Assembly: GCF_008085915.1 (NCBI RefSeq)
Contig: NZ_VSJK01000008.1
Location: forward strand, 186,001 to 250,000
Length of the DNA stretch: 64,000 nucleotides
DNA from: Oceaniovalibus sp. ACAM 378
GTDB lineage: Bacteria; Pseudomonadota; Alphaproteobacteria; Rhodobacterales; Rhodobacteraceae
Direction: 5' to 3'
Shown here: positions 45,085 through 60,988 of the stretch, piece after piece
Layout: each line of letters begins with the position of its first letter
How positions within the stretch are numbered: the stretch's first letter is position 1
Position numbers and translations under genes: made by a program
The notes under the pieces: model-generated
Databases searched by the model: none
What the model saw: only the letters and a program-made list of their open reading frames with translations
Told to the model about the DNA's origin: nothing

Positions 45085-45633
45085 TCAGAACGTGGGGGGC
45101 GTGCAGGCGCTGATGATCTCGCAAACCATATCGCCAGCGTTGCGAAACCTGTGCGGCAGGCGGCTGTCGAACAGATATCCATCGCCCGGACCCAGTGATC
45201 CGATGTGACCGTTCACGGTGATTTCGATCGTACCGCGCACGACAATCCCGGCCTCTTCCGATTCATGACTGAGCAGGCGTTCCCCTGTATCCGCGCCGGG
45301 GGGATAGGTTTCGTGCAGCATCTGCAGGCTGTGGCGCGAGGCATGGCCAAGCTGGCGCAGCGACAGGGTGTTCGCGCCACCGGGCGACAGTTCGGTGAAT
45401 TCATCCGCCCGCCAGAACATCTTTTCCGGCTCTTCCTCGATGGATGCAAAGAAATCCGACATGCTCATCGGGATCGCGTCGAGCAGCGATTTCAGCGATG
45501 CCACCGATGGCGACGTGCGGTTCTTCTCGATCAGTGATATGGTGCCGTTGGTCAACCCGGCGCGCGCAGCAAGTTCGCGTTGCGATAGGCCCTTTTGCTT
45601 GCGCACCGCCTGAAGTTTCCTGCCGATGTCCAT
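45085..45633 (-). CDS. PuuR-like XRE-cupin transcriptional regulator
   Basis: The 182-residue regulator has an N-terminal helix-turn-helix (MDIGRKLQAVRKQKGLSQRE, TNGTISLIEKNRTSPSVASL) and a C-terminal cupin (residues about 105-175, with HESEEAGIVVRGTIEITVNG and LGPGDGYLFDSRLPHRFRN). This layout is that of PuuR, the putrescine-responsive repressor, and relatives. It is divergent from the GABA aminotransferase gene with a perfect palindrome in the spacer. It probably controls gabT and perhaps the downstream amine gene run; ligand inference rests on family resemblance. Confidence 0.85.
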   Translation of the reverse strand: MDIGRKLQAVRKQKGLSQRELAARAGLTNGTISLIEKNRTSPSVASLKSLLDAIPMSMSDFFASIEEEPEKMFWRADEFTELSPGGANTLSLRQLGHASRHSLQMLHETYPPGADTGERLLSHESEEAGIVVRGTIEITVNGHIGSLGPGDGYLFDSRLPHRFRNAGDMVCEIISACTPPTF

Positions 45634-45728
45634 CATCCGTCCCGGGGCTGAGGCTGTGGCGCAGTGATGCAGAAGACGCGTTGAAAGATCAAGCCTCGCA
45701 GGTTTTCGCCACCGATCCCACAATCACG

Positions 45729-45765
45729 TTGACAGATATATTCAACGCAGTACTGAGAATTCTCA
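45729..45765 (+). promoter_or_regulatory. gabT promoter with overlapping palindromic operator
   Basis: A consensus -35 TTGACA (45729-45734) is followed after 16 bases by TACTGA (45751-45756). TGAGAATTCTCA (45754-45765) is a perfect 12-base palindrome overlapping the presumed -10. That position suits repression by the divergent PuuR-like regulator, whose start is about 120 bases away. Confidence 0.55.
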
Positions 45766-45829
45766 ACACCCCCGCAACGCCGCTACCCGTCGACTCACCC
45801 CCTGTCTCTGCTGCAAAAGGAACAGAAGA

Positions 45830-47251
45830 ATGGCCACCCAGACCCCCAAAAAACCCCGCAAGACGGCCGCCCAAACCGCAGAGAAATCGCGCGGCAAGAC
45901 CATGGCAGCAGCAAAGCCCGGACCCCGGATCGCGCTGGTTCCCGATAATACGCCGGTGACCAATGCCGATCTTCTGGCGCGCCGTCAGGCAGCTGTGCCC
46001 CATGGCGTGGCCAGCGCGACCGGGGTGTTCGCCGCCCATGCGGAAAACGCCGAACTGTGGGATGTCGAAGGCAACCGTTACATCGATTTTGCCGGCGGTA
46101 TCGCCGTGCTGAACACCGGCCATCGTCACCCCAAGGTGATTGCGGCGGCGATGGAACAGGAAGCCCATTTCACCCACACATCTTTTCAGGTGGTGCCCTA
46201 TGAGGGCTATGTCGCGCTGGCCGAACGGCTGAACGCGCTGGCGCCGGGGGATCACGCGAAAAAGACGCTGCTGGTATCCACCGGGGCCGAGGCGGTTGAG
46301 AATGCGGTGAAAATCGCCCGTGTCGCCACGGGTCGCCGGGGTGTCATCGCGTTTCACGGCGCCTATCACGGGCGCACTCTGTTGACGCTGGGAATGACCG
46401 GCAAGGTCAGCCCCTATAAGTTGAACGTCGGTCCGTTCCCGGGCGATATTTTCCGCGCACCTTTCCCTTCGGCGCGGGACGGCATCACCGTGGCTGATGC
46501 GTTGAAAGGTCTGGAGAACCTGTTTCTGACCGACGCACAGCCCGAAACCGTTGCCGCGATCATCATCGAGCCGGTTCTGGGCGAAGGCGGGTATACGCCC
46601 GTGCCGTTCGAGATGATGCAGGCACTGCGCGCGATCTGCGACAAACACGGTATCTTGTTGATTGCCGATGAAATCCAATCGGGGTTTGCACGCACCGGAA
46701 CATGGTTCGCCGTCGAACATTCCGGCGTCATTCCCGATCTGATCACTGTGGCGAAATCCATGGCGGGGGGGTATCCCATCGCCGGTGTGATTGGCCGCGC
46801 CGAGATCATGGACGCCGTGCCTCCGGGCGGGCTGGGCGGCACCTATGCCGGCAATCCGGTGGCCTGCGCCGCCGCGCTGGCGGCCATTGACGCGATCGAG
46901 GATGAAGGGCTGTTGGAGCGTTCAACCGCTCTGGGCGAGCGTTTGCGCGCCCGCTTTGCCGAGATGGGCGCGCGCGTCGCACCGTTCCGGATGTGGGATA
47001 TCCGTGGGCTGGGGGCGATGCTCGCCGTCGAGTTCGTGAGCGATTTTGATACCGCCACGCCGGATGCCGCGCTGGTCAAATCGATCTGCGCCCATGCGCT
47101 CAAGCGTGGGTTGATTCTGCTGAGTTGCGGAATGCACGGCAATGCTGTGAGGATCATGGTGCCGCTGACCGCTTCGGATGCGATCATCGACGAAGGCATG
47201 ACGATTTTCGAGGCAGCGCTGGCTGACGCTGTCACTGGGGCCGCCGTCTGA
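45830..47251 (+). CDS. gabT: 4-aminobutyrate (class III) aminotransferase
   Basis: The 473-residue PLP enzyme transfers the amino group of GABA (or a related omega-amino acid) to 2-oxoglutarate. Key features are STGAEAVENAVKIAR, FHGAYHGRTLLTLGMTGK, IIEPVLGEGGY, the DE pair in LIADEIQSGFARTG and Lys309 in VAKSMAGGYP. About 30 N-terminal residues form a Lys/Ala-rich extension not typical of GabT; AAGGAACAGAAG before ATG 45830 supports that start, though a start near 45902 is possible. No succinate-semialdehyde dehydrogenase is adjacent. A strong terminator separates it from the transporter operon. Confidence 0.9.
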   Translation: MATQTPKKPRKTAAQTAEKSRGKTMAAAKPGPRIALVPDNTPVTNADLLARRQAAVPHGVASATGVFAAHAENAELWDVEGNRYIDFAGGIAVLNTGHRHPKVIAAAMEQEAHFTHTSFQVVPYEGYVALAERLNALAPGDHAKKTLLVSTGAEAVENAVKIARVATGRRGVIAFHGAYHGRTLLTLGMTGKVSPYKLNVGPFPGDIFRAPFPSARDGITVADALKGLENLFLTDAQPETVAAIIIEPVLGEGGYTPVPFEMMQALRAICDKHGILLIADEIQSGFARTGTWFAVEHSGVIPDLITVAKSMAGGYPIAGVIGRAEIMDAVPPGGLGGTYAGNPVACAAALAAIDAIEDEGLLERSTALGERLRARFAEMGARVAPFRMWDIRGLGAMLAVEFVSDFDTATPDAALVKSICAHALKRGLILLSCGMHGNAVRIMVPLTASDAIIDEGMTIFEAALADAVTGAAV

Positions 47252-47274
47252 CAACCCGCTGACTTTGTTTTAAT

Positions 47275-47310
47275 AAATAGGGCGTCCAATCCGTTGGGCG
47301 CCCTATTTTT
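47275..47310 (+). terminator. Intrinsic terminator after gabT
   Basis: AAATAGGGCG (47275-47284) pairs with CGCCCTATTT (47299-47308). The stem continues inwards through a T-G pair and CCAA/TTGG to a TCCG loop and is followed by TT. The whole is about 15 paired bases and very likely functional. Confidence 0.88.
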
Positions 47311-47608
47311 GGGCCTTCCACATACGAGACGCCAGCACAGGATTGCGCAACTTGCAGCAGAATGACTTGTTCGAAAAAATAAACACCGATACGGTGAAGG
47401 CAGGGCGCGACCTGATATTGTCAAGCCGTGAATGCAGTTGACCTTGATGGAAAACCTGCTTGTGTGGGCTTGATGTCACGCAGATCGAACCGTCCGGGCA
47501 AAATACCCTCCGCACCCTGCGGCGGGACAGAATTCGGGGCGGATCGTTGCCCTTGGCATACAGACTGAAAAGGCCCGATCAACCGGCCACCTGTAGTGGG
47601 AGTAATAA
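47311..47608 (+). promoter_or_regulatory. Leader region of the TAXI-TRAP/amine gene run
   Basis: No gene is seen. The spacer is moderately A+T-rich near 47345-47460 and includes TTGACC near 47439 as a possible -35, without a convincing -10 at the right distance. GGGAG precedes the solute-binding-protein start. The promoter for the following run of genes is expected here. Confidence 0.35.
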
Positions 47609-48565
47609 ATGAAAACGTTGAAAACACTGACCCTGATGGGCGCAATGCTTGCGGGCACCGCAGCATTCGCACAAGAACGGTTCATCACAATCGGTACCGG
47701 CGGTCAGACAGGCGTGTATTTCGTCGTCGGTCAGTCGATCTGCCGTCTGGTCAACCGCGACAGCGCGACCAACGGATTGAAATGCACCGCGCCGTCCACC
47801 GGCGGCTCGATCGCAAACATCAACGCGATCAAGGCTGGCGATATGGACATGGGCGTCGCCCAGTCCGACTGGCAGTACCACGCCTATAACGGCACCTCGC
47901 AGTTCGAGGGTGACAAGTTCGACAAGGAACGCGCGGTGTTCTCCGTACACGGTGAACCCTTCACCGTGATTGCGCGCAAAGACGCCAACATCGGCGATTT
48001 CGACGATCTCAAGGGCAAGCGGGTGAATGTCGGCAACCCCGGGTCAGGTCAGTTGGCGACGATGGAAGTCGTGCTGGATGCCAAAGGCTGGACGATGGAC
48101 GATTTCGCCCTCGCATCCGAGCTGAAGCCCGCTGAACAGGCTGCCGCTCTGGGTGACAACAAGGTGGACGCGATCATCTATACCGTCGGCCACCCGAACG
48201 GATCGATCCAGGAGGCGGTGTCGACTGTCGACGCCAGCATCGTACCCGTAACCGGCGAGGCGATTGACAAGCTGATCGCCGACAACCCGTTCTATGCCAC
48301 CGCCACCATCCCCGGCGGCATGTACAAGGGCACCGATGACGACGTGACGACCTTTGGCGTCAAGGCAACTTTTGTCACCTCGTCCGATGTGCCGGATGAT
48401 GTGATTTATGCTGTGGTCAAGGCGGTGTTCGACAACTTTGACCGCTTCAAGAAACTGCACCCGGCCTTTGAAAACCTCAAGGAAGAGGAAATGATCAAGG
48501 ACGGTCTGTCGGCTCCGCTGCACCCGGGCGCCGAAAAGTACTATAAGGAGCGTGGCTGGATGTAA
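47609..48565 (+). CDS. TAXI family TRAP transporter solute-binding protein
   Basis: The 318-residue periplasmic protein has a signal peptide (KTLKTLTLMGAMLAGTAAFA). The TAXI signature region is TIGTGGQTGVYFVVGQSICR. LKCTAPSTGGSIANINAIKA and VGNPGSGQLATMEVVLDAKG form the ligand cleft. TAXI proteins capture small organic acids or amino acids such as glutamate for a fused DctQM permease. It heads a co-directional run ending at 59616, followed by a strong hairpin that may set its expression above the permease. Confidence 0.92.
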   Translation: MKTLKTLTLMGAMLAGTAAFAQERFITIGTGGQTGVYFVVGQSICRLVNRDSATNGLKCTAPSTGGSIANINAIKAGDMDMGVAQSDWQYHAYNGTSQFEGDKFDKERAVFSVHGEPFTVIARKDANIGDFDDLKGKRVNVGNPGSGQLATMEVVLDAKGWTMDDFALASELKPAEQAAALGDNKVDAIIYTVGHPNGSIQEAVSTVDASIVPVTGEAIDKLIADNPFYATATIPGGMYKGTDDDVTTFGVKATFVTSSDVPDDVIYAVVKAVFDNFDRFKKLHPAFENLKEEEMIKDGLSAPLHPGAEKYYKERGWM

Positions 48566-48574
48566 TCCGGTCTT

Positions 48575-48599
48575 CGGGGGCGGCGCAAAGCCGCCCCCG
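48575..48599 (+). other. Intercistronic hairpin between binding protein and permease
   Basis: CGGGGGCGGC (48575-48584) and GCCGCCCCCG (48590-48599) form a perfect 10-base stem with loop GCAAA, 10 bases after the binding-protein stop. There is no T-run. Such hairpins commonly protect the upstream cistron's mRNA or partly terminate, giving excess binding protein. Confidence 0.65.
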
Positions 48600-48697
48600 A
48601 TCCGTCTGAAATGGGGCCAGGATCCGGCCGAAAATGGTTCACAAAATCAGACGCCACCGGCAAAAATGACCGGGGCGCAGCATCAGGGAAAAGCATA

Positions 48698-51466
48698 ATG
48701 TCTGACAAGGATCAGCAGCAGGCCGCCGCGGTCGAAGCAGCCGCCGCCGGACGGGGAGGGCTGTCGCAGGCCGAACTGGACGAACTGGTCGCGTCTTCCG
48801 ATACCGGTGGACGCGCGGCAAGCGGGGCCGTCGGCACCTTTCTGATGCTGATTGCGCTGGCGTGGTCGCTGTTCCAACTCTGGATCGCCTCCCCGATTCC
48901 GTTCATCGTCGGCTGGGGCGTGTTCAACGACACCGAAGCGCGTTCGATCCACCTGGCCTTTGCAATTTTTCTGGCGTTCGCGGCCTTTCCCGCCACACGC
49001 ACGCCATTCCAGCTTGGTCTGGGGATCGCGATTCCGCTGATCCTGGCCGTGCTGTTCATGATTTCCGCCAAGGATGGCGCGGCGACCTGGTATATTCCGG
49101 TCATCGCGCTGGCCGTGGTGGGGGCAGTGATCCTTGGATCGCCCAAGGACCGGATTCCATCCTGGGAATGGGCGCTGGCGATCATTTCTGCGGCGACCGC
49201 GCTGTATCTATTCGTCTATTACCGTGACATCTCGGGGCGGGTCGGTGCGCCGATCACGCAGGATTTCGTGGTTGGCGTGGCCGGGATCATCCTGTTGCTT
49301 GAGGCGACACGCCGCGCTTTGGGTCCGGCGCTCATGATCGTCGCATCGGTGTTTCTGATGTATACGGTGCTTGGGCCGCAAATGCCCGGCATCATCGCCC
49401 ACAAGGGCAACAACCTGTCGGAAATCATCAATCACCACTGGATCACAACCGAAGGCGTGTTCGGCATCGCCTTAGGCGTTTCAACATCGTTCGTGTTTCT
49501 GTTCGTGCTGTTCGGATCGCTGCTGGATCGGGCCGGCGCGGGCAATTACTTTATTCAGGTGGCGTTTTCGCTGATGGGCCACATGCGTGGCGGACCGGCC
49601 AAGGCAGCCGTCGTCGCCTCGGCCATGACTGGCCTGATCTCGGGGTCGTCCATCGCCAACGTCGTGACCACGGGCACCTTCACCATTCCGCTGATGAAAA
49701 AGGTCGGATTTTCCGCCGAGAAGGCCGGCGCGGTCGAGGTCGCATCCTCGGTCAACGGGCAGATCATGCCGCCGGTGATGGGTGCTGCGGCCTTCCTGAT
49801 GGTCGAATATGTCGGCATCCCGTATTTCGATGTGGTCAAACACGCCTTCGTGCCCGCGGTCATCAGCTATATCGCGCTGGTCTATATCGTGCATCTTGAA
49901 GCGATGAAGGCGGGTATGGAGGGGCTGCCGCGCGCCTATACTCCGAAACCGCTGGTGCAGCAGTTGATCGGTATCGCCTTTGCTATCGCGGCGATCTGCG
50001 CGATTTCCTTTGCCGTCTATTATGCCATGGGCTGGATCCGCCCGGCGTTTCCGGAAACCGCAGGCTATATCATCTTTGCCTTTGTCACCTCGGTCTATGT
50101 CGCGCTGCTTTGGGTCGCGTCGAAAGAGGCACCGCTGAAGATGGACGATCCGAATGCGCCGGTTTTGTCGCTGCCCTTGCCGGGCCCGACGGCGCGCTCG
50201 GGGCTGCATTTCATCCTGCCGGTCGTTGTGCTGGTCTGGGCACTGATGGTTGACCGGCTGTCGCCGGGGCTCTCGGCCTTCTGGGCGTCGGCATACATGG
50301 TGTTCATTCTGGTGACCCAGCGCCCGCTAATGGCGATGTTCCGCGGTGAAAGCCGTCTGATGACCGACATCAAGCAAGGGTTTCTTGATCTGAACGACGG
50401 GCTGGTCACGGGCGCGCGCAACATGATCGGCATCGGCATCGCCACGGCGACCGCCGGTATCATCGTCGGCGTTGTGTCGCAGACCGGAGTCGGTTCGGCG
50501 CTGGCCAATGTGGTTGAAGTGCTGTCGGGCGGCAATATCATGGCGATCCTGCTTTTGACCGCCGTTCTTTCGCTGATCCTTGGGATGGGGCTGCCGACCA
50601 CGGCGAACTATATCGTGGTGTCGGCGCTGCTGGCTCCGGTCATCGTGACGCTGGGCCAGCAGAACGGGCTGATCGTGCCGCTGATCGCGGTGCACCTGTT
50701 CGTGTTCTATTTCGGGATCATGGCAGACGTCACGCCGCCCGTGGGCCTTGCGTCCTTTGCGGCGGCGGCCGTTTCGGGCGGTGACCCGATCAAGACCGGG
50801 GTGATCGCCTTCTTCTATTCGCTCAGAACTGCCGCACTGCCGTTCCTGTTCATCTTCAACACCGAACTGCTGCTGATCAATGTGACGATGACACAGGGGA
50901 TATTTGTCTTTGTTGTCGCGACGGTTGCCATGCTTTTGTTCGCCGCTGCGACGCAGGGGTGGTTCCTGACAAAAAGCCGGTTCTATGAATCCATCGCGCT
51001 GTTGTTGGTGGCCTTTACCCTGTTCCGGCCGGGATTCTGGATGGATATGGTCGCGCCGCCCTATGCGGAAACCCCGCCCGCCGAACTGGTGCAGACGGCC
51101 GCGGCCACGCCGTCGGGGGAAACGCTGCGTCTGCGGGTATCAGGGGTGAACGATCTGGGTGATCCGGTTGAATTTGTGGCGCTTCTGGGCATCGGAGAAG
51201 GCGCCACCGGCGAAGAGAAGCTTGAGAATTCAGGGGTTGTCCTGCGCGAGGAGGACGGCAAGACGATCATCGATGATGTCGCCTTCGGCAGCTCTGCCGA
51301 GGCCGCAGGGCTTGACTGGGATCAAGAGGTCGTGCGCGTGCTCAAGCCGCTGGATCAGCCGACGAAATACCTGATGTTCATTCCGGCGCTGGCACTGCTC
51401 CTGCTTGTGATCTTTCTGCAACGCGGCCGGGCAATGCGCACCAATGCCACACCGAAACCGGCCTGA
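48698..51466 (+). CDS. TRAP transporter fused permease (4TM/12TM) with DUF3394 domain
   Basis: The 922-residue membrane protein fuses DctQ- and DctM-like parts. There is a charged N-terminus, then many helices with the family blocks SSIANVVTTGTFTIPLMKKV, SSVNGQIMPPVMGAAAFLMV, LGMGLPTTANYIVVSALLAP and MADVTPPVGLASFAAAAVSG. The last 190 residues include a soluble PDZ-like DUF3394 domain (VLREEDGKTIIDDVAFGSSA, then VVRVLKPLDQPTKYL) and a final helix. It imports the ligand of the TAXI protein with sodium or protons. The start MSDKDQQQ is chosen after AGGGAAAAG. Confidence 0.92.
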   Translation: MSDKDQQQAAAVEAAAAGRGGLSQAELDELVASSDTGGRAASGAVGTFLMLIALAWSLFQLWIASPIPFIVGWGVFNDTEARSIHLAFAIFLAFAAFPATRTPFQLGLGIAIPLILAVLFMISAKDGAATWYIPVIALAVVGAVILGSPKDRIPSWEWALAIISAATALYLFVYYRDISGRVGAPITQDFVVGVAGIILLLEATRRALGPALMIVASVFLMYTVLGPQMPGIIAHKGNNLSEIINHHWITTEGVFGIALGVSTSFVFLFVLFGSLLDRAGAGNYFIQVAFSLMGHMRGGPAKAAVVASAMTGLISGSSIANVVTTGTFTIPLMKKVGFSAEKAGAVEVASSVNGQIMPPVMGAAAFLMVEYVGIPYFDVVKHAFVPAVISYIALVYIVHLEAMKAGMEGLPRAYTPKPLVQQLIGIAFAIAAICAISFAVYYAMGWIRPAFPETAGYIIFAFVTSVYVALLWVASKEAPLKMDDPNAPVLSLPLPGPTARSGLHFILPVVVLVWALMVDRLSPGLSAFWASAYMVFILVTQRPLMAMFRGESRLMTDIKQGFLDLNDGLVTGARNMIGIGIATATAGIIVGVVSQTGVGSALANVVEVLSGGNIMAILLLTAVLSLILGMGLPTTANYIVVSALLAPVIVTLGQQNGLIVPLIAVHLFVFYFGIMADVTPPVGLASFAAAAVSGGDPIKTGVIAFFYSLRTAALPFLFIFNTELLLINVTMTQGIFVFVVATVAMLLFAAATQGWFLTKSRFYESIALLLVAFTLFRPGFWMDMVAPPYAETPPAELVQTAAATPSGETLRLRVSGVNDLGDPVEFVALLGIGEGATGEEKLENSGVVLREEDGKTIIDDVAFGSSAEAAGLDWDQEVVRVLKPLDQPTKYLMFIPALALLLLVIFLQRGRAMRTNATPKPA

Positions 51467-51477
51467 GGAGAGACAAG

Positions 51478-51909
51478 ATGTTCAAATCCATTCTTCTCAC
51501 GATTGACCTGACCGACCCGGCCACATGGGTCAAAGCGCTGCCTCAGGCGATCGAGATGGCGCAATGGGGCGGAGGCGTGCTGCATATCGTTTCCGTCGTG
51601 CCGGACATGGGAACGGCGCTTGTTTCCAGCCATTTCCCTGAAGGCTTTGCAAGGGACGCTTTGAACAAGGCGAAACAGGCTTTGGACAATCTGGTGGAAA
51701 ACAACGTCCCGGAAGGTTTGGAAGTGCATGCGCATCTGGCCTATGGCGACATTCACGAAAAAGCGGTCGAGGCGATCACCAGGACCGGGTGCGATCTGGT
51801 GGTGATGGCCTCTCCTGCGCCCGACCGGGTGCGCGAATTCCTTGTGGGGTCGAACGCGGATCGCATCGTGCGTCGATCACCGGTTTCCGTTCTGGTCGTA
51901 AGAAGCTAG
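51478..51909 (+). CDS. Universal stress protein (UspA family)
   Basis: The 143-residue protein matches UspA: SILLTIDLTDPATWVKALPQ at the N-terminus, AYGDIHEKAVEAITRTGCDL and the nucleotide-binding-like GSNADRIVRRSPVSVLVV (G-2x-G-9x-G-S/T-like) at the C-terminus. Small UspA proteins are often co-encoded with TRAP transporters (TeaD of the ectoine system), where they bind ATP and tune uptake. It starts 11 bases after the permease with a GAGGAGAG ribosome-binding sequence, so a transporter role is likely. Confidence 0.9.
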   Translation: MFKSILLTIDLTDPATWVKALPQAIEMAQWGGGVLHIVSVVPDMGTALVSSHFPEGFARDALNKAKQALDNLVENNVPEGLEVHAHLAYGDIHEKAVEAITRTGCDLVVMASPAPDRVREFLVGSNADRIVRRSPVSVLVVRS

Positions 51910-51978
51910 GCCAACGGCGACTTAGCCCCGTCCGATCGCCCGTTTGAACGGGCTGTCGCGACCTACGGAGACAGACAC

Positions 51979-52995
51979 ATGACCCCCTTTGCGATCGCCG
52001 GCGTGCAGATGCACGTGAACGCCCTGCACCCCAATGTTGACGGGATGATCGAGCGGCTTGATATCCTGATGGCCCGCTTTCCCTGGACGCAGATGGTGCT
52101 GTTTTCCGAGCTTGCGCCGTTCGGACCGCTGAACAAATTCGCCCAAGCGCCCGAAAACGAAACCCTGACGCGGTTTTGCGAGGCTGCAGCCCGCCACCGG
52201 GTCTGGCTGATTCCGGGGTCAATGTTTCTCGCCGGGCCAGACGGACGCATCTTCAATACCTCGGTGGTGATCAATCCCGAGGGCGAAATCATCCGGCGTT
52301 ACGCCAAGATGTTTCCGTTTCTGCCCTATGAGGCAGGGATCGCGCCGGGCACCGAATTCTGCGTGTTCGACGTGCCCGAGGTGGGGCGGTTCGGCCTGTC
52401 GATCTGTTATGACATGTGGTTCCCCGAAACCACGCGGATGCTGACAAGCATGGGCGCCGAAGTGCTGTTGCACCCGGTTTTGACCGGCACCACCGACCGC
52501 GACGCCGAACTCGCCATTGCCCGGGCGACCGCGGCGCAATTCCAGTGCTATGTGATCGACGTGAACGGGCTCGGTGCCGGAGGGGTGGGGAAATCCTGTA
52601 TCGTCGATCCCACATCCACCGTGCTGCACCAGTCGGGGGGACAGGAAGACATGTTCCCGATCGAGGTCGATCTGTCGATGGTGCGCCGCCAGCGTGAAAC
52701 CGGCATGAAGGGTCTGGGACAGGTGCTGAAATCCTTCCGTGACCGCCCAACAGATTTTCCGGTCTATGACCGGACCAGCGGGACGGACGCCTATCTGCAC
52801 ACCCTCGGGCGACTGGAAATCCCCCATCAGGGCAGTCGCGCGGGCCTGCATATGGACCTGCCGGCCGATACTTTGCCCGGCGCAGTACAGCATGGCGACC
52901 CGTCGTTTGCCGCACCGGTCAACGCACCTGTCACCGCACCTATTAACGCACCCGTCACCGCAGCCGGCGATCCCGTCAAATTATCCGACAAGTAA
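51979..52995 (+). CDS. Nitrilase-family carbon-nitrogen hydrolase
   Basis: The 338-residue enzyme has the nitrilase-superfamily triad Glu44 (LFSELAPFG), Lys110 (YAKMFPF) and Cys143 (SICYDMWFP). Members hydrolyse amides, N-carbamoyl amines or nitriles; ICYDMWFPE is closest to amidase branches. The C-terminal 40 residues are an extra low-complexity tail with near-repeats such as APVNAPVTAPINAPVT that may be disordered. It lies 39 bases before the decarboxylase gene. In this context an amide of a diamine or basic amino acid is an attractive substrate, which is inference. Confidence 0.87.
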   Translation: MTPFAIAGVQMHVNALHPNVDGMIERLDILMARFPWTQMVLFSELAPFGPLNKFAQAPENETLTRFCEAAARHRVWLIPGSMFLAGPDGRIFNTSVVINPEGEIIRRYAKMFPFLPYEAGIAPGTEFCVFDVPEVGRFGLSICYDMWFPETTRMLTSMGAEVLLHPVLTGTTDRDAELAIARATAAQFQCYVIDVNGLGAGGVGKSCIVDPTSTVLHQSGGQEDMFPIEVDLSMVRRQRETGMKGLGQVLKSFRDRPTDFPVYDRTSGTDAYLHTLGRLEIPHQGSRAGLHMDLPADTLPGAVQHGDPSFAAPVNAPVTAPINAPVTAAGDPVKLSDK

Positions 52996-53034
52996 GGCAA
53001 GACCCCACACCGCTCATATCACTGGAGACCATCT

Positions 53035-55770
53035 ATGCATTCCGTGAACGACTACTATTCGGCGATCCAGCTCAGATCCGACCGGTGGAGCGCGCTGCGG
53101 GATGCCACGGGCAGTCTATCACGGGAACCCGGCGCCAAGGCGGCGAAGAAACTGCAGGCCACCGTGGCCGAGCTGATGGACAGCCTTGCGCGGATCGAAC
53201 CCTATTGGGCGTTTCCGGGGATGGCGGCGTTTGAGCACCTGCGCCGTCAGTTCGACAACGGCGGCTATGCCGATCTGGCCTTTGCGACCCAGCGTGTCAC
53301 CCGTGCGCTGACCACCGGTGCCTATCGCCGTCGGCACATCCCGCTGGATCGCGATTCCGCCGAGATGGATGATGCCGAGGACGAGGCTCTGCTGTCACCC
53401 GAGGCGCGGGCCATGTCCAAGCCCTATTTCGAAGTGCTAATCGTCGACGATGTGACCGACCAACAGGAACGCTGGGTGCGGGCAAACATGCAGCGGATGC
53501 GCCGGCCCGAAGATCCGTTCATCTATGAACCCGTCGTCGTGCCCAGCCTTGAGGACGCGATCATCGCGGTGCTGTTCAACCACAACATTCAGGCCATTGT
53601 CGTGCGCCCCGGTCTGTCGCTGAAATCAAAGCTTGAACAGCAGATGTCAAACCGGTTCATCACCCGGGCAGGGGGCGCGGAATACATCGACTCGCTGCCG
53701 CCCGAAAACTATGGCCCCGAGCTCTGCCGTCTGATCGCTCGGGTTCGCCCGGAACTTGATGCTTATCTAGTCACTGAACGGTCGGTCGAAGACATCGCCG
53801 GGCTGGATCTGGGGATCTGCCGGCGGGTCTTTTATAATCAAGAAGACTTTATGGAGCTGCACCTGAACATCCTGCGCGGTGTGCAGTCGCGGTACAAAAC
53901 CCCGTTTTTCACCGCGCTTGTCGAATATTCCAAACAGCCAACTGGCGTGTTTCACGCCATGCCGATTTCGCGCGGCAAGTCGATCACCCGGTCCCACTGG
54001 ATTCAGGACATGGGAGCGTTTTACGGCCCGAACATCTTTCTGGCCGAAACCAGCGCCACATCGGGCGGTCTGGATTCCCTGCTTGAACCCCATGGACCGA
54101 TCAAAGAGGCGCAGGAATATGCCTCGCGCGCGTTCGGCAGCAAACAGACATTCTTTGCCACCAACGGCACATCGACCTGTAACAAGATTGTCGTGCAGGC
54201 GCTGGTGCGTCCCGGCGATATCGTGCTGGTCGACCGGGATTGTCACAAGTCGCACCATTACGGCATGGTTCTGGCGGGGGCACAGGTCTGTTATCTCGAC
54301 AGTTATCCGCTGAATGAATATTCGATGTATGGTGCCGTGCCGCTGCGCGAGATCAAGAAACAGTTGCTGGAACTCAAGGCGGCCGGCAAGCTCGATCGCG
54401 TGCGAATGCTGCTGCTGACCAACTGCACCTTCGACGGGCTGGTCTATAATGTCGAGCGGGTGATGGAGGAATGTCTGGCGATCAAGCCCGATCTGGTCTT
54501 CCTATGGGATGAGGCGTGGTTCGCCTTTGCCCGGTTCAACCCCACCTATCGCGGACGCACGGCGATGAACGCGGCCAATACACTGCGTATCCGGCTGCGC
54601 AGCGATGCCCACGCCACGGCTTTTGCCAAGCAACAGATTGAGCTGGCAGATGCCAGTGATGAGGTCCTGCTGGCCACTCGACTGATTCCGCCGCCCACTG
54701 CGCGCGTCCGCACCTATGCGACGCAAAGCACGCATAAGACCCTGACCAGTCTGCGGCAGGGATCGATGATTCATGTCAACGATCAGGACTTTAAAGGCGA
54801 GGTCGAACAGGCGTTCCACGAAGCCTATATGACCCACACCTCGACCAGCCCGAACTATCAGATCATTGCATCGCTGGATGTCGGGCGGCGGCAGGTTGAA
54901 CTGGAAGGGTTCGAGTTTGTGCAGCGCCAGATCGAAGCGGCGATGTCGATGCGCCGGGCGATCAGTGACCACCCGCTTTTGCAGAAATACTTCAAGATTC
55001 TGACGGCGGGCGACATGATCCCTGATGAACATCGCGAAAGCGGGGTGACCAGTTATTATGACAGCGAACAGGGCTGGACCGATCTGTGGGACTGCTGGGA
55101 AAAAGATGAATTCGTGCTGGACCCGACGCGCGTCACGCTGGCGGTGGGCGAAACCGGTTGGGATGGCGACACATTCAAAACCCGGATTCTAATGGATAAA
55201 TACGGCATCCAGATCAACAAGACGTCGCGCAACACCGTTCTGTTCATGACCAATATCGGCACAACGCGGTCGTCTGTAGCCTATCTGATCGAGGTGCTGG
55301 TCGAGATCGCGAATTCGCTGGATGATCTGCTTGACGATGCATCAAAAATGGAGCGCAAGGCCTTTGATCGCCGGGTAAAGAACCTGCGCGATGACCTGCC
55401 GCCGCTGCCGGATTTCAGCCGGTTCCACGATGCCTTCCGTCAGGACGACGTCACCCCCGAGGGCGATATCCGCACAGCGTTCTTTCTGGCCTATGATGAC
55501 AACAATTGCGACTATCTTGAACTTGACGGAACGCTGAAAGAGGCGATGGAGGCCGGCGAGGTCGTATCGGCCAGTTTCATCATCCCCTATCCGCCGGGGT
55601 TTCCGATTCTGGTGCCCGGACAGGTGATCAGTCAGGAAATTCTGGCCTTCATGCGCGCGCTGGATGTCAGCGAAATCCACGGATACCGCCCTGATCTGGG
55701 GCTGCGGGTGTTCACATCCGAAGCTTTGGCACAGCTTGTCCAGAAACGACTTTCCATCGCCGCCGAATAA
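53035..55770 (+). CDS. Orn/Lys/Arg-type PLP decarboxylase (group III, 911 residues)
   Basis: The N-terminal 130 residues are unusual. A wing (receiver-like) domain (YFEVLIVDDVTDQQERWVRA) follows, then the PLP fold: FFATNGTSTCNKIVVQAL, DRDCHKSHHYGMVLAGA, FLWDEAWFAFARF and Lys568 in STHKTLTSLRQGSM. These match the biodegradative ornithine/lysine/arginine decarboxylases, usually 710-760 residues, so this one is about 150 longer. Loss of CO2 from arginine, lysine or ornithine would give agmatine, cadaverine or putrescine. The substrate cannot be told from sequence. It is tightly followed (25 bases) by the ATP-grasp gene. Confidence 0.85.
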   Translation: MHSVNDYYSAIQLRSDRWSALRDATGSLSREPGAKAAKKLQATVAELMDSLARIEPYWAFPGMAAFEHLRRQFDNGGYADLAFATQRVTRALTTGAYRRRHIPLDRDSAEMDDAEDEALLSPEARAMSKPYFEVLIVDDVTDQQERWVRANMQRMRRPEDPFIYEPVVVPSLEDAIIAVLFNHNIQAIVVRPGLSLKSKLEQQMSNRFITRAGGAEYIDSLPPENYGPELCRLIARVRPELDAYLVTERSVEDIAGLDLGICRRVFYNQEDFMELHLNILRGVQSRYKTPFFTALVEYSKQPTGVFHAMPISRGKSITRSHWIQDMGAFYGPNIFLAETSATSGGLDSLLEPHGPIKEAQEYASRAFGSKQTFFATNGTSTCNKIVVQALVRPGDIVLVDRDCHKSHHYGMVLAGAQVCYLDSYPLNEYSMYGAVPLREIKKQLLELKAAGKLDRVRMLLLTNCTFDGLVYNVERVMEECLAIKPDLVFLWDEAWFAFARFNPTYRGRTAMNAANTLRIRLRSDAHATAFAKQQIELADASDEVLLATRLIPPPTARVRTYATQSTHKTLTSLRQGSMIHVNDQDFKGEVEQAFHEAYMTHTSTSPNYQIIASLDVGRRQVELEGFEFVQRQIEAAMSMRRAISDHPLLQKYFKILTAGDMIPDEHRESGVTSYYDSEQGWTDLWDCWEKDEFVLDPTRVTLAVGETGWDGDTFKTRILMDKYGIQINKTSRNTVLFMTNIGTTRSSVAYLIEVLVEIANSLDDLLDDASKMERKAFDRRVKNLRDDLPPLPDFSRFHDAFRQDDVTPEGDIRTAFFLAYDDNNCDYLELDGTLKEAMEAGEVVSASFIIPYPPGFPILVPGQVISQEILAFMRALDVSEIHGYRPDLGLRVFTSEALAQLVQKRLSIAAE

Positions 55771-55795
55771 CAAAATTTGCAGGGAGAACAGCACA

Positions 55796-57256
55796 ATGGC
55801 ATCAACTGTCCTGAACAACATTTCTGAAATCCGGCGGTTTTTCCACCGCAACGAAGATCCGGTCTATTTCATCTCGGCGACGAATTTCAACCTGCTGGGG
55901 ATTGATGAGTGGGTCAAGAATTTCAAATATATCTGCTATATCGATTGCTACGACGGCAAACATCCCAACGTGTTTTGCCCCAGTGAACAGCCTCATGCCG
56001 AATTCCAGAGCATCGAGGACATCAACAATTATCTCCTCCAGCACAAAGAGGTGATCGACTTCATCAAGAGGCGCGGCGGCAAGCCGAAATTCGTCTTCCT
56101 GATGTTCGACGAAGAGACTGAGCGGCTGTCAAAAGAACTGGGGGCCGACGTCTGGTTCCCCAAGGCGAAACTGCGCCAGAGCATGGACAACAAGATCGCA
56201 ACCGTCCGCATCGGCAATAAGGCGGGGGTGCCTTCGGTGCCCAACACGCTGTCGGTGGTCGAAAGCTATGACCACCTGCGCGAGATTACCGAACAGGCCG
56301 GCATCGGGCATGATCTGGTGCTGCAAAGCGCATTTGGCGATTCCGGACACACCACGTTCTTTATCAAATCCGAAGCAGATTTCCGCCGCCATGAATCCGA
56401 AATCGTCGGCGAGGGCGAGATCAAGATCATGAAGCGGATCGATTGCCGCGGCTCGGCGATCGAGGCTTGTGCAACGAAGGAAGGCACCATCGTCGGCCCG
56501 CTGATGACAGAACTGGTGGGATTTAAAGAACTTACACCCTATCGCGGCGGCTGGTGCGGTAATGAAATCCTGTCGACCGCCTTTCCACCGAAAGTACGCC
56601 AAAAGGCCCGCGACCTGACTTTCAAGTTTGGCGAGCAGTTGCGCAAGGAAGGCTATCGCGGCTATTTCGAGCTGGATTTCCTGATCGACAAAAAGACCGG
56701 CGATCTGTGGCTGGGCGAATTGAACCCGCGTATCACCGGTGCGTCGTCGATGACCAATCACGCCGCCTTTGCCCATGCGGATGCGCCGCTGTTTCTGTTC
56801 CATCTTCTTGAATTCTCACGCAAGAAGTTCGACCTGGACGTGGACGAGTTGAACAATCGCTGGGCCAATCCCGACATGATCGATTCATGGTCGCAGATGG
56901 TGATCAAGCACACCCAGGACAGCGTGGACATCTGCACCGACAGCCCGGAAACCGGCATTTATCGGATGCTGGAGGATGGGCGCGTGGTGTTCGACCGGTT
57001 CGATTATCACCGCCGCGCGGTAGAGAGCGAGAACGAGGCGTTCTTTCTGCGCATCCTGCAACCGGGCGATTACCGGTACGAGGGCGCGGATATCGGAATC
57101 CTTGTGACCCGGGGTCGGTCGATGACGAAATCCTTTGACCTGAACGAACGTGCGAAACGCTGGATTCACGGCATCAAGCAAAGCGTTTCAGGGCGGCCTC
57201 TGCCCGTGGCACAGGCCGGTCCGGCATTGGCCGATCCTGCGTTCAAGATCATGTAG
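55796..57256 (+). CDS. ATP-grasp ligase of unknown specificity
   Basis: The 486-residue protein has an N-terminal Rossmann-like part (VYFISATNFNLLGIDEWVKN). The ATP-grasp core carries a central lysine region (IGHDLVLQSAFGDSGHTTFF) and the metal-binding LWLGELNPRITGASSMTNHA with Glu and Asn ligands. Such enzymes form amide or thioester bonds through acyl phosphates, for example amino acid-amino acid or amino acid-amine ligation. No biotin-carboxylase tail is present. It lies between decarboxylase and C45-hydrolase genes, so ligation of an amine product is plausible. GGGAG precedes ATG 55796. Confidence 0.82.
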   Translation: MASTVLNNISEIRRFFHRNEDPVYFISATNFNLLGIDEWVKNFKYICYIDCYDGKHPNVFCPSEQPHAEFQSIEDINNYLLQHKEVIDFIKRRGGKPKFVFLMFDEETERLSKELGADVWFPKAKLRQSMDNKIATVRIGNKAGVPSVPNTLSVVESYDHLREITEQAGIGHDLVLQSAFGDSGHTTFFIKSEADFRRHESEIVGEGEIKIMKRIDCRGSAIEACATKEGTIVGPLMTELVGFKELTPYRGGWCGNEILSTAFPPKVRQKARDLTFKFGEQLRKEGYRGYFELDFLIDKKTGDLWLGELNPRITGASSMTNHAAFAHADAPLFLFHLLEFSRKKFDLDVDELNNRWANPDMIDSWSQMVIKHTQDSVDICTDSPETGIYRMLEDGRVVFDRFDYHRRAVESENEAFFLRILQPGDYRYEGADIGILVTRGRSMTKSFDLNERAKRWIHGIKQSVSGRPLPVAQAGPALADPAFKIM

Positions 57257-57260
57257 TCCC

Positions 57261-58232
57261 TTGTTCTGGCGCGCCTATCACGAAACGACGCCCGGCCCGC
57301 GATGGGCCGGGCTGTTTGCCGAATACTGGCCCGTTTATCATCGCTGGTGGTCGCGCGAAGGCGTGTCCGTGCGCCCCAGCTATGCGGTGTGCCGCAGGGC
57401 CTTGATGGCGCATATGCCGGAAATCCTGCCACTGTATGACGATCTATGCGCGCTTGCCGGGGGCGGCGATCAGGCGGCACGGTTTCTCAGTTTCTATTGC
57501 CCGCCGCCCTATCTTTCCGGCTGTTCACAGGCGGTCTGGTCGGGCAAAGAACCGGTCTTGGTCAGAAATTATGACTATGATCCGCGGTCCTTCGATTCCC
57601 TTGTGCTGTCCACCGGCTGGCAGGGGCGGCGGGTGATCGGCACTTCGGACGGGCTGTGGGGGCTGGTCGATGGGATGAACGATGCCGGATTGGCGATATC
57701 GCTGACTTTTGGCGGTCGGCGGATCGTTGGCGACGGGTTCGGGGTGCCGCTGATCCTGCGCTATGTGCTTCAGGTCTGCGAGACGACCCAGCAGGCGGGC
57801 GAAGTGCTTGCCCGGCTGCCGACACATATGAGTTACAATGTCACGGTTCTGGACGCCAAGCGGCAGTATCTGACGGCCTTCATGGCACCGGACCGCAAGG
57901 CGGTGATCAGCCGTACCGCCGTGGCGACCAACCATCAGGAGGTCGTCGAATGGGTCAGCCACGCGCGCTTTACCGCAACGGTTGAGCGTGAGAGATTTCT
58001 TTTGCAACGCATGCAGTTACACCGCGATCCTGAAGAGAAATTCATTGGTGCCTTCCTGAAGCCGCCGCTGTATTCGACCGCTTTCGATGCCGGGTTCGGC
58101 ACGCTTTATACTGCCGTCTATCGGCCGCGTCTCGGACGGATGGAGCTGCGCTGGCCCGGCACGGTCTGGCCTTTCAGCTTTGACAATTTCCCCGAAGAAG
58201 GGCGTCACGTCGCCATTCCCGGCGCGGCCTGA
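57261..58232 (+). CDS. C45-type Ntn hydrolase / acyltransferase-like protein
   Basis: The 323-residue protein resembles acyl-CoA:6-aminopenicillanate acyltransferase (peptidase C45) enzymes. A candidate autoprocessing Gly87-Cys88 bond (YLSGCSQAVW) would expose the nucleophilic Cys. VLVRNYDYDPRSFDS, GLWGLVDGMNDAGLAISLTF and TAVATNHQEVVEW are conserved features. These Ntn enzymes cleave or transfer linear amides. No ATG fits; the TTG at 57261, four bases after the ATP-grasp stop, preserves the N-terminal FWRAYHETTPGPRW and implies coupled translation without a good ribosome-binding site. Confidence 0.8.
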   Translation: MFWRAYHETTPGPRWAGLFAEYWPVYHRWWSREGVSVRPSYAVCRRALMAHMPEILPLYDDLCALAGGGDQAARFLSFYCPPPYLSGCSQAVWSGKEPVLVRNYDYDPRSFDSLVLSTGWQGRRVIGTSDGLWGLVDGMNDAGLAISLTFGGRRIVGDGFGVPLILRYVLQVCETTQQAGEVLARLPTHMSYNVTVLDAKRQYLTAFMAPDRKAVISRTAVATNHQEVVEWVSHARFTATVERERFLLQRMQLHRDPEEKFIGAFLKPPLYSTAFDAGFGTLYTAVYRPRLGRMELRWPGTVWPFSFDNFPEEGRHVAIPGAA

Positions 58233-58281
58233 CACTGTCATAGGTGCTGCAACCTTGCCTCAGCCACCGAAAGGGCGCGAC

Positions 58282-59616
58282 ATGAGCCATATTTTCCCCC
58301 GCAATCCAAAATCACTGCCCCCCGTTGCTATTTCGGGGCAGGGATGCTGGCTGACCGATGACACGGGCAAGCGGTATCTTGATGCGTCGGGCGGCGCGGC
58401 GGTGTCCTGTCTGGGGCATGGGGACAGGGCGGTGATCGATGCGGTAAAGGCACAGCTTGACGTGCTGGCCTATGCCCACACGGGGTTTTTCACCAGCGAA
58501 CCCGCGGAAATGCTGGCCGATTTGCTGATCGAACAGGCCCGCGCAATTCCCGGCAGCGATCTGGATCGGGTCTATCTTGTCTCGGGCGGGTCCGAGGCGG
58601 TGGAAGCGGCGCTGAAACTGGCGCGGCAGTACCATGTCGAGCGCGGCGAACCCGAGCGTGGCCGGATCATCGCCCGCAAGCAAAGCTATCACGGCAACAC
58701 TCTGGGCGCGCTGGCGGCGGGGGGCAATGAGTGGCGGCGGGAACAGTTTGCGCCGCTGCTGCTGGATGTCAGCCATATCGACCCCTGCTATGAATACCGC
58801 CTGAAAAATGACGACGAAACCCCCGAGGCTTATGGCCTGCGCGCCGCGAACCTGCTTGAGGAAGAACTGCTGCGCGTCGGCCCCGAAACCGTGATGGCCT
58901 TCATCGCCGAACCCGTGGTCGGTGCGACGGCGGGTGCGCTGACCCCCGCGCCGGGTTATTTCGCCCGCATCCGCGAGATCTGTGACCAATACGGAATCCT
59001 GCTGATTCTGGACGAGGTGATGTGCGGCATGGGGCGCACCGGCCATCTGTTCGCCTGCGAGGCTGAAGACGTGGCCCCGGATATCCTGTGTATCGCCAAA
59101 GGCTTGGGCGCCGGATATCAGCCGATTGGCGCGATGCTCTGTTCGGCGCATATCTATGACACGATTGTGCAGGGTTCCGGGTTTTTCCAGCACGGTCACA
59201 CCTATATCGGCCATCCGGCGGCGGCTGCGGCGGGGCTGGCGGTGGTAACGGCACTGCTGGACCGCGGATTGGTGGCGCGGGCAGGCACACAGGGCGATAA
59301 GCTGCGCGGGATGTTGGAGCGCACTCTGGGCCAACACCCCCATGTGGGCGACATCCGTGGTCGGGGGAGCTTTATCGGGCTGGAACTGGTCGCCGACCGG
59401 GCCACCAAGGCCCCCTTCGCCGCGTCGCGCGCAATCGCAGCCAAGGTGAAGAAGGCAGCCTTTGCCGAGGGCCTGATTTGCTATCCGATGTCGGGCACCA
59501 TCGACGGACGTTTGGGCGACCACATCCTGCTGGCCCCGCCGTTCATCATTACCGACGAAGAATGCGGCTTTCTGGTCGAATGGCTTGCCAAGGCGATTGC
59601 GGTGGCGCTGGGGTGA
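58282..59616 (+). CDS. Class III aminotransferase
   Basis: The 444-residue PLP enzyme shows YLVSGGSEAVEAALKLARQY, KQSYHGNTLGALAAGGNEWR, FIAEPVVGATAGALTPAPGY, the DE pair of LILDEVMCGMGRTG and Lys273 in CIAKGLGAGYQP. It resembles omega-amino acid, diamine or pyruvate-dependent aminotransferases, often labelled 'aspartate aminotransferase family'. It is the last gene of the amine run; AAAGGG precedes the ATG. An amine or acylated diamine from the upstream enzymes is a likely substrate, which is inference. Confidence 0.9.
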   Translation: MSHIFPRNPKSLPPVAISGQGCWLTDDTGKRYLDASGGAAVSCLGHGDRAVIDAVKAQLDVLAYAHTGFFTSEPAEMLADLLIEQARAIPGSDLDRVYLVSGGSEAVEAALKLARQYHVERGEPERGRIIARKQSYHGNTLGALAAGGNEWRREQFAPLLLDVSHIDPCYEYRLKNDDETPEAYGLRAANLLEEELLRVGPETVMAFIAEPVVGATAGALTPAPGYFARIREICDQYGILLILDEVMCGMGRTGHLFACEAEDVAPDILCIAKGLGAGYQPIGAMLCSAHIYDTIVQGSGFFQHGHTYIGHPAAAAAGLAVVTALLDRGLVARAGTQGDKLRGMLERTLGQHPHVGDIRGRGSFIGLELVADRATKAPFAASRAIAAKVKKAAFAEGLICYPMSGTIDGRLGDHILLAPPFIITDEECGFLVEWLAKAIAVALG

Positions 59617-60798: not shown

Positions 60799-60988
60799 TT
60801 GCCGAGCGCATCAACCTGAGTGTGTGCAAGACCTTAATGAATTGCGGGTTCTTTGACTTCAGACATTCCTGAGACGCGCAAAATTTGTCAATGTGGGCGC
60901 CAACCAGCCACCCACATGCACCAAACCGCCGGGGGTGGACACCGGGCAGGTTTCCCCTAGCCTTGGGGTGAATATCACGGAGATGCAG

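Follow-up and report, generated by a model that had tools for sequence, protein, structure and literature searches.

A cluster of ten genes lies at positions 45,085 to 59,616 of a 64,000-nucleotide stretch of the Oceaniovalibus sp. ACAM 378 genome (contig NZ_VSJK01000008.1, positions 186,001 to 250,000; hereafter the window), and four of them form a conserved unit: a nitrilase-superfamily hydrolase, a pyridoxal-phosphate (PLP) decarboxylase of the Rv2531c type, an ATP-grasp ligase and a C45-family N-terminal nucleophile (Ntn) hydrolase. That this core comprises four genes, not eight, is near certain. In our reading, to which we assign a probability of about 0.45, it is a module that would break down a basic or diamino acid to an omega-amino acid, for example gamma-aminobutyrate (GABA), with an amide-protected amine as intermediate; a catabolic role as such is likely. 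The original prediction, made from the DNA alone, had described the open reading frames (ORFs), positions, strands and gaps correctly: the intergenic distances after the permease gene, taken from the sequence and the ORF ends, are 11, 69, 39, 25, 4 and 49 bases, and eight genes do run on one strand, the eighth, absent from its title, being a universal stress protein (PF00582).

The family of the ATP-grasp protein was searched in 292 genomes of the window's order, which gave 61 matches over the cut-off in 60 genomes. Sixty neighbourhoods (at most 20 kb around the match, all except the window's own) were fetched and searched with the window's proteins, and matches below 50% identity were excluded from the gabT and aminotransferase counts. 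The nitrilase and C45 genes occur in 60/60 of these loci and the decarboxylase gene in 57/60. The TAXI solute-binding protein and the permease of the tripartite ATP-independent periplasmic (TRAP) importer are each present in 31/60, the stress protein and the PuuR-like regulator in 20 each, gabT in 18 and the aminotransferase in 11. The TAXI-TRAP importer, gabT, regulator and aminotransferase, all of which the original prediction had counted as parts of one pathway unit, fall outside the conserved unit and are optional partners of the core. In some loci, such as those of Roseobacter ponti and Rhizobium leguminosarum, a peptide-type ATP-binding cassette (ABC) importer adjoins the core instead, and in R. 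ponti, by annotation, gabT and a cupin protein stand beside it. A unit of eight genes is ruled out, since just four are constant across the 60 loci.

The core extends beyond the order. In a scan of 398 genomes of the phylum, 11 matched with an E-value of at most 1e-60. Four of these, the window's genome included, belong to the family of the window; in the seven others, decarboxylase, ligase and C45 genes occur together in 7/7 and the nitrilase gene in 5/7. A survey of exactly this co-occurrence had been proposed as a test of the cluster and, with 57/60 in the order and 7/7 outside the family, it holds for four genes, so that the cluster is more than a product of chance. A lack of such co-occurrence elsewhere would have counted against the original prediction, and this is not what the genomes show. 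When named genomes were scanned, the best 80 of 491 relatives were kept as loci, with the decarboxylase in 80, C45 in 79, the nitrilase in 76, TAXI in 36, gabT in 32, the regulator in 27 and the aminotransferase in 15, again with gabT and aminotransferase matches below 50% identity excluded. The locus that lacks C45 (L104) stops 35 bases past the ligase match, and of those that lack the nitrilase, L137, L149 and L151 are incomplete upstream and L144 is not. The two sets are not independent, because 15 of the 80 share their centre letter for letter with one of the 60. The ligase is matched in 9 of 337 genomes in a scan of the class, the window's own counted, and in 1 of 98 in the family of genome G298, namely G298; among plasmid records, mostly from Rhizobium and Sinorhizobium, there are 32 with a ligase match and 59 with a decarboxylase match.

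Across 186 ligase loci from overlapping collections, the window's order nitrilase-decarboxylase-ligase-C45 is found in 134, nitrilase-ligase-C45-decarboxylase in 26, decarboxylase-ligase-C45 alone in 12 and further arrangements in 14. The betaproteobacterium Cupriavidus oxalaticus has the four genes in the window's order; the core is shared by many environmental bacteria and occurs in alpha- and betaproteobacteria, and probably in gammaproteobacteria too. That the genes are kept together despite differing orders is the best evidence for a joint function, and this conservation, partly with changed gene order, rules out a chance neighbourhood. The distances between core proteins are also correlated (r 0.87–0.96, 0/999 permutations as high, 26–38 taxa), to which we attach little weight because shared descent would produce the same result.

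Some loci are unusual in their surroundings or label. On a contig labelled Oceanobacillus (Bacillota; L165) the core is 67–81% identical to the window's, which reflects contamination, a mislabel or transfer. In two genomes of family f47, both of the same genus (L096:7208-16340 and L098:3545-12798), decarboxylase, ligase and C45 genes follow a gene for a fusion of urea transporter and M23 peptidase, and are followed by a protein that has no significant Pfam match and looks like an outer-membrane barrel.

The active sites of the core proteins are intact. Nineteen residues of active-site type were checked in aligned homologues and 17 are invariant, the two variable ones being K405 of the decarboxylase (179/181) and N193 of the C45 protein (176/182). 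The Glu-Lys-Cys triad of the nitrilase (E44, K110, C143) is present in 172/172 homologues; no NCBIfam model of a named nitrilase subfamily, such as AguB or dGSH amidase, was passed (best 68 bits, against a cut-off of 355). The decarboxylase aligns with PDB 9n0o at an E-value of 1.1e-248 across residues 13–909, i.e. over its full length. This structure is that of Mycobacterium tuberculosis Rv2531c, whose activity, according to the portions available of PMC12910592 (2026 review), is not established and was not clarified by the structural study. The PLP lysine (K568, in STHK) is found in 184/184 homologues, and the protein partially matches lysine, arginine and ornithine decarboxylases alike.

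The ATP-grasp protein scores above the cut-off of NF005096, named 'biotin carboxylase', a result that tests membership of the family and not the name. Its residues E308, N310, R312, K133 and K210 are conserved in 186/186 homologues; we take E308 and N310 to be the ExN Mg/ATP motif and K133 and K210 to be the ligase lysines. The protein is probably an amide ligase. The structure model of the C45 protein (predicted local distance difference test, pLDDT, 83.8) is nearest to isopenicillin N acyltransferase (2x1c) and N-acylethanolamine acid amidase, and its nucleophile C88 (183/183) and residues R102 and D105 (both 182/182) are conserved. A second C45-family protein is encoded in the genome outside the module (L002, G000:C34:280310-280909).

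From the gene content, the conservation, the intact active sites and the proximity to genes of GABA, arginine and ectoine metabolism, all of them observed, we infer the reactions, their order and the substrate as follows. The PLP decarboxylase would convert a basic or diamino acid (arginine, ornithine or lysine, or 2,4-diaminobutyrate in the ectoine branch) to an amine. The ATP-grasp enzyme would spend ATP to link this amine, or a different amino compound from the pathway, to a carboxylic acid as an amide. Oxidation of the free end may fall to a class-III transaminase together with an aldehyde dehydrogenase like succinate-semialdehyde dehydrogenase (SSADH), encoded locally or remotely, and the C45 enzyme would then cut the amide and free an omega-amino acid, for instance GABA for use by gabT and gabD. 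The nitrilase may cut a second amide, that of an imported substrate or of a deaminated side product.

Degradative neighbours are found in family f51, presumably the Halomonadaceae to judge from its ectoine-cluster genes, where the ligase is matched in 40 of 151 genomes and 26 of these loci were fetched. In 25 of the 26, nitrilase-ligase-C45-decarboxylase stand on one strand between doeB-doeX and the genes for a doeC-like dehydrogenase and a doeD-like transaminase. At locus L099, DoeA (653.7 > 613), DoeB (491.3 > 402.7), EhuR (596 > 480) and the transaminase (PRK07482, 801.2 > 687) pass their family cut-offs, and the doeC-like protein is nearest to SSADH (595.3 < 646.35). Only about one f51 genome in four has the core, which therefore supplements ectoine breakdown and is not part of it. 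We consider it a tentative and somewhat doubtful possibility that halophiles dispose here of 2,4-diaminobutyrate by an additional route, unrecognised so far, beside doeC/doeD, as part of an undescribed ATP-grasp/Ntn-hydrolase amide cycle for diamino-acid catabolism in which decarboxylation to 1,3-diaminopropane would be followed by amide protection, oxidation and the release of beta-alanine.

Other neighbourhoods point to arginine and agmatine. Plasmids of Shinella zoogloeoides and 'Roseateles sp. XES5' carry the ligase and C45 genes, with a divergent nitrilase, inside a gene set that in Shinella would lead from arginine to GABA. It encodes (family scores from Shinella) agmatinase (212.3 > 174.3), D-amino acid dehydrogenase (473.5 > 383), 5-guanidino-2-oxopentanoate decarboxylase (737 > 500), aldehyde dehydrogenase and a racemase whose name, ornithine racemase, is nearly backed (393.3 < 480); the decarboxylase gene of XES5 has an arginase gene at a distance of about 7 kb. 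The XES5 record (L183/L190, NZ_CP084753.1, labelled Roseateles sp. XES5, UNVERIFIED_ORG) encodes proteins 91–97% identical to those of the Shinella plasmid and in the same order, and its organism label may be wrong. In Marivivens an agmatinase gene (303.7 > 302; L138 is the same genome) directly follows C45, and at L216 an agmatinase homologue (45% identity) is encoded upstream of the core. An SSADH-like gene lies within about 10 kb of the core in nine loci (seven genomes; L078/L114 and L083/L180 are identical pairs) outside the ectoine cluster, 44–49% identical to the ectoine-cluster enzyme and in 8/9 on the opposite strand. None of the doe or AruI-route genes was found by family searches among the ten cluster genes of the window. 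These contexts, with their links to GABA, arginine and diaminobutyrate, share one theme, the degradation of basic or diamino acids to omega-amino acids or related compounds, and to this extent the amine or basic amino acid pathway originally proposed stands, with neighbours that point to arginine/agmatine, GABA and 2,4-diaminobutyrate and with no single substrate named.

Several observations weigh against our proposal. The arginine and the diaminobutyrate contexts point to different substrates, and the nitrilase has no clear place in a scheme of protection, oxidation and deprotection. The local AruI-type route in Shinella and XES5 yields no free diamine, and the XES5 decarboxylase gene is about 550 kb from the ligase gene on the same plasmid. 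Agmatinase near the core is rare, being limited to Marivivens, L216, Shinella and XES5. Three order loci without a decarboxylase (L090–L092) have a distant ligase (43–45% identity) and the gene order ligase-C45-nitrilase, and the f51 exception, L211, which is near a contig start, has just a distant C45-ligase pair. According to the part of PMC3187862 that is available, doeABX and doeCD of Halomonas elongata are separate transcripts. The structure model of the ATP-grasp protein (pLDDT 60.2) is too poor for a pocket to be read from it. Among the 37 decarboxylases of a tree, the five that lack a local ligase require three changes and are therefore not one clade. Finally, the module need not be the sole route in the window's genome, which encodes on other contigs two agmatinase-family proteins, one arginase and one PuuD-like protein (148.2 < 266; no genome-wide search for PuuA was made). 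Of the Puu-like scheme with non-homologous enzymes that the original prediction had put forward, the conserved active-site residues are in favour, and the constant nitrilase is without a clear role in it; as the Shinella ligase and hydrolase sit in a diamine-free AruI-type route, the Puu-like order of steps is possible, and because the nitrilase and the Shinella set weigh against it, it stands as the best single guess at the probability given above.

The ligase-less decarboxylases have surroundings of their own. On three plasmids (L187, L188, L189) an Rv2531c-type decarboxylase without ATP-grasp adjoins an aspT-type antiporter, at L187 also near an HdeA/HdeB chaperone; in the tree these three decarboxylases group on a single starred branch with a long stem, and the pairs are possibly acid-resistance systems. 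The aspT neighbours led us to consider an acidic amino acid as the decarboxylase substrate. In Sinorhizobium meliloti ml66 (L191, CP140943.1), a diaminobutyrate transaminase gene (ectB) is followed, after about 2.7 kb that include an insertion sequence element, by an Rv2531c-type decarboxylase gene without a ligase.

Decarboxylases and ATP-grasp enzymes are a known amide-making pair, and it is unlikely, but deserving of serious weight, that the module is biosynthetic: the ATP-grasp enzyme would couple the amine from the decarboxylase to an amino acid, giving a small amide (an osmolyte, signal or nodule compound) that the transporters move, with the C45 protein as acyltransferase or product trimmer. 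Such a role would suit Rhizobium, where a nitrilase-less core is found beside nifHDKE or beside a Nif11-type ribosomally synthesized and post-translationally modified peptide (RiPP) cluster, and where the nif-adjacent place of another strain holds a diaminobutyrate transaminase gene and three ATP-grasp-type genes. It is at odds with the named partners, most of which serve import (TAXI-TRAP, peptide-type ABC) or degradation (gabT, doe, agmatinase, AruI), and with the presence of two amide hydrolases among the most constant members. The latter strain is R. leguminosarum UPM791 (L233, pRlvC, NZ_CP025505.1 184000-212000), in which the gene annotated 'ectB' corresponds, to judge from strain and annotation, to dat, a diaminobutyrate transaminase gene already published; besides nif genes it is accompanied by genes for an aspartate-semialdehyde dehydrogenase and a major facilitator superfamily transporter, the C-terminal domain of an L-amino acid ligase is present in both of the two ATP-grasp-type genes that were searched, and the set suggests a pathway to a diaminobutyrate-containing amide.

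We regard as distinctly unlikely a route that starts from an imported amide, from which the nitrilase (or C45) would free a basic amino acid for the decarboxylase to turn into an amine, with the ligase acting later or in salvage. The order nitrilase-decarboxylase-ligase-C45, commonest at 134 of the 186 overlapping loci, speaks for such a route, but the order changes in other lineages. The peptide-type ABC importers beside the core in R. ponti and Rhizobium are in keeping with it, as is an unrelated amidase gene downstream in two nitrilase-less Rhizobium loci (L181, L193); at the third, L184, no amidase is annotated in the stretch examined. The constancy of a ligase in a hydrolytic route is left unexplained.

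In biotin carboxylases, QVEH after NxRI is the catalytic signature. A reading that takes the NCBI name of the ATP-grasp protein literally, with a biotin carboxylase in a carboxylation pathway, is very improbable because this stretch is missing (NPRIQVEH in pyruvate carboxylase is NPRITGAS in the NF005096 profile and NPRITGASS in the window protein) and because family searches of the ten cluster genes turned up neither a carboxyl-carrier nor a carboxyltransferase family (no genome-wide search was made), even though the protein passes a curated model and its best PDB relatives are biotin carboxylase domains both by sequence, at no more than about 33–38 bits, and by fold, a match from the same poor model.

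The genes of the cluster are listed in Table 1. Downstream of it, at window positions 60893-63355, lies a gene for an 820-residue protein with a GHL5 ('hypothetical glycoside hydrolase 5') domain.

Table 1. Cluster genes, with positions in the window, strand and family evidence (score > cut-off)
Gene product	Position	Strand	Evidence and remarks
PuuR-like helix-turn-helix + cupin regulator	45085..45633	-	PF01381, PF07883; NF007408; ORF open from 45723 (TTG), ATG at 45633
gabT, 4-aminobutyrate transaminase	45830..47251	+	TIGR00700 560.9 > 506.65; start codon uncertain
TAXI-type TRAP solute-binding protein	47609..48565	+	TIGR02122 363.9 > 84.35
Fused TRAP permease with DUF3394	48611..51466	+	TIGR02123 641.2 > 320.65, PF11874; start possibly further in
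Universal stress protein (UspA type), 143 aa	51478..51909	+	PF00582 78.3 > 24
Core: carbon-nitrogen hydrolase (nitrilase superfamily)	51979..52995	+	PF00795 108.5 > 23.2
Core: PLP (OKR) decarboxylase, 911 residues	53035..55770	+	PF01276 262.7 > 27; Rv2531c/PDB 9n0o homologue
Core: ATP-grasp protein, probably amide ligase	55796..57256	+	NF005096 765.2 > 684, scored on ORF open from 55664
Core: C45-family Ntn hydrolase/acyltransferase (TTG start)	57261..58232	+	NF040521 176 > 85, scored on ORF open from 57150
Class-III aminotransferase, optional partner	58282..59616	+	NF005685 732.8 > 485, scored on ORF open from 58087

If our proposal is true, it would give a function to the NF005096 'biotin carboxylase', a subgroup of C45 proteins and the Rv2531c-type decarboxylase, whose annotation is doubtful or empty, and the acyl-protection logic of putrescine breakdown would have arisen with unrelated enzymes. 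The form within the ectoine gene cluster means that growth experiments with halophiles can test the module. The open-licence literature, searched by titles and the starts of abstracts, yielded no description of the four-gene set, which is weak evidence of absence, and the portions available of PMC12910592, PMC5320631, PMC3187862, PMC7192451 and PMC10228743 do not describe the module.

Among known systems, the f51 loci resemble the doeABX-doeCD cluster of H. elongata, the core standing between doeX and the doeC-like gene; in H. elongata itself, as far as the available part of PMC3187862 goes, the locus numbers of doeX (Helo_3663) and doeC (Helo_3662) are consecutive, with no core genes in between. 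The window decarboxylase is a full-length homologue of Rv2531c (PDB 9n0n/9n0o/9n0p). The arginine route via 5-guanidino-2-oxopentanoate (AruI, aldehyde dehydrogenase, ureohydrolase) is the one among whose genes the Shinella and XES5 ligase and C45 are embedded; to our knowledge the classic form of this route requires neither a ligase nor an Ntn hydrolase. The putrescine degradation system Puu consists of PuuA, B, C, D and R. The window cluster shares with it a ligase and an amide hydrolase, both predicted here, an adjacent gabT and PuuR-like regulator (148.1 bits to NF007408, under the PuuR equivalog cut-off of 211), and GABA as the expected product. The ligase is of the ATP-grasp type here and of the glutamine-synthetase type in Puu, the hydrolase a C45 Ntn enzyme here and a class-I amidotransferase there; the window cluster adds a decarboxylase and a nitrilase, and family profile searches found no PuuA, PuuD or oxidase family among its proteins. 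By gene family the module is not Puu, but it would work like known acyl-protected amine catabolism.

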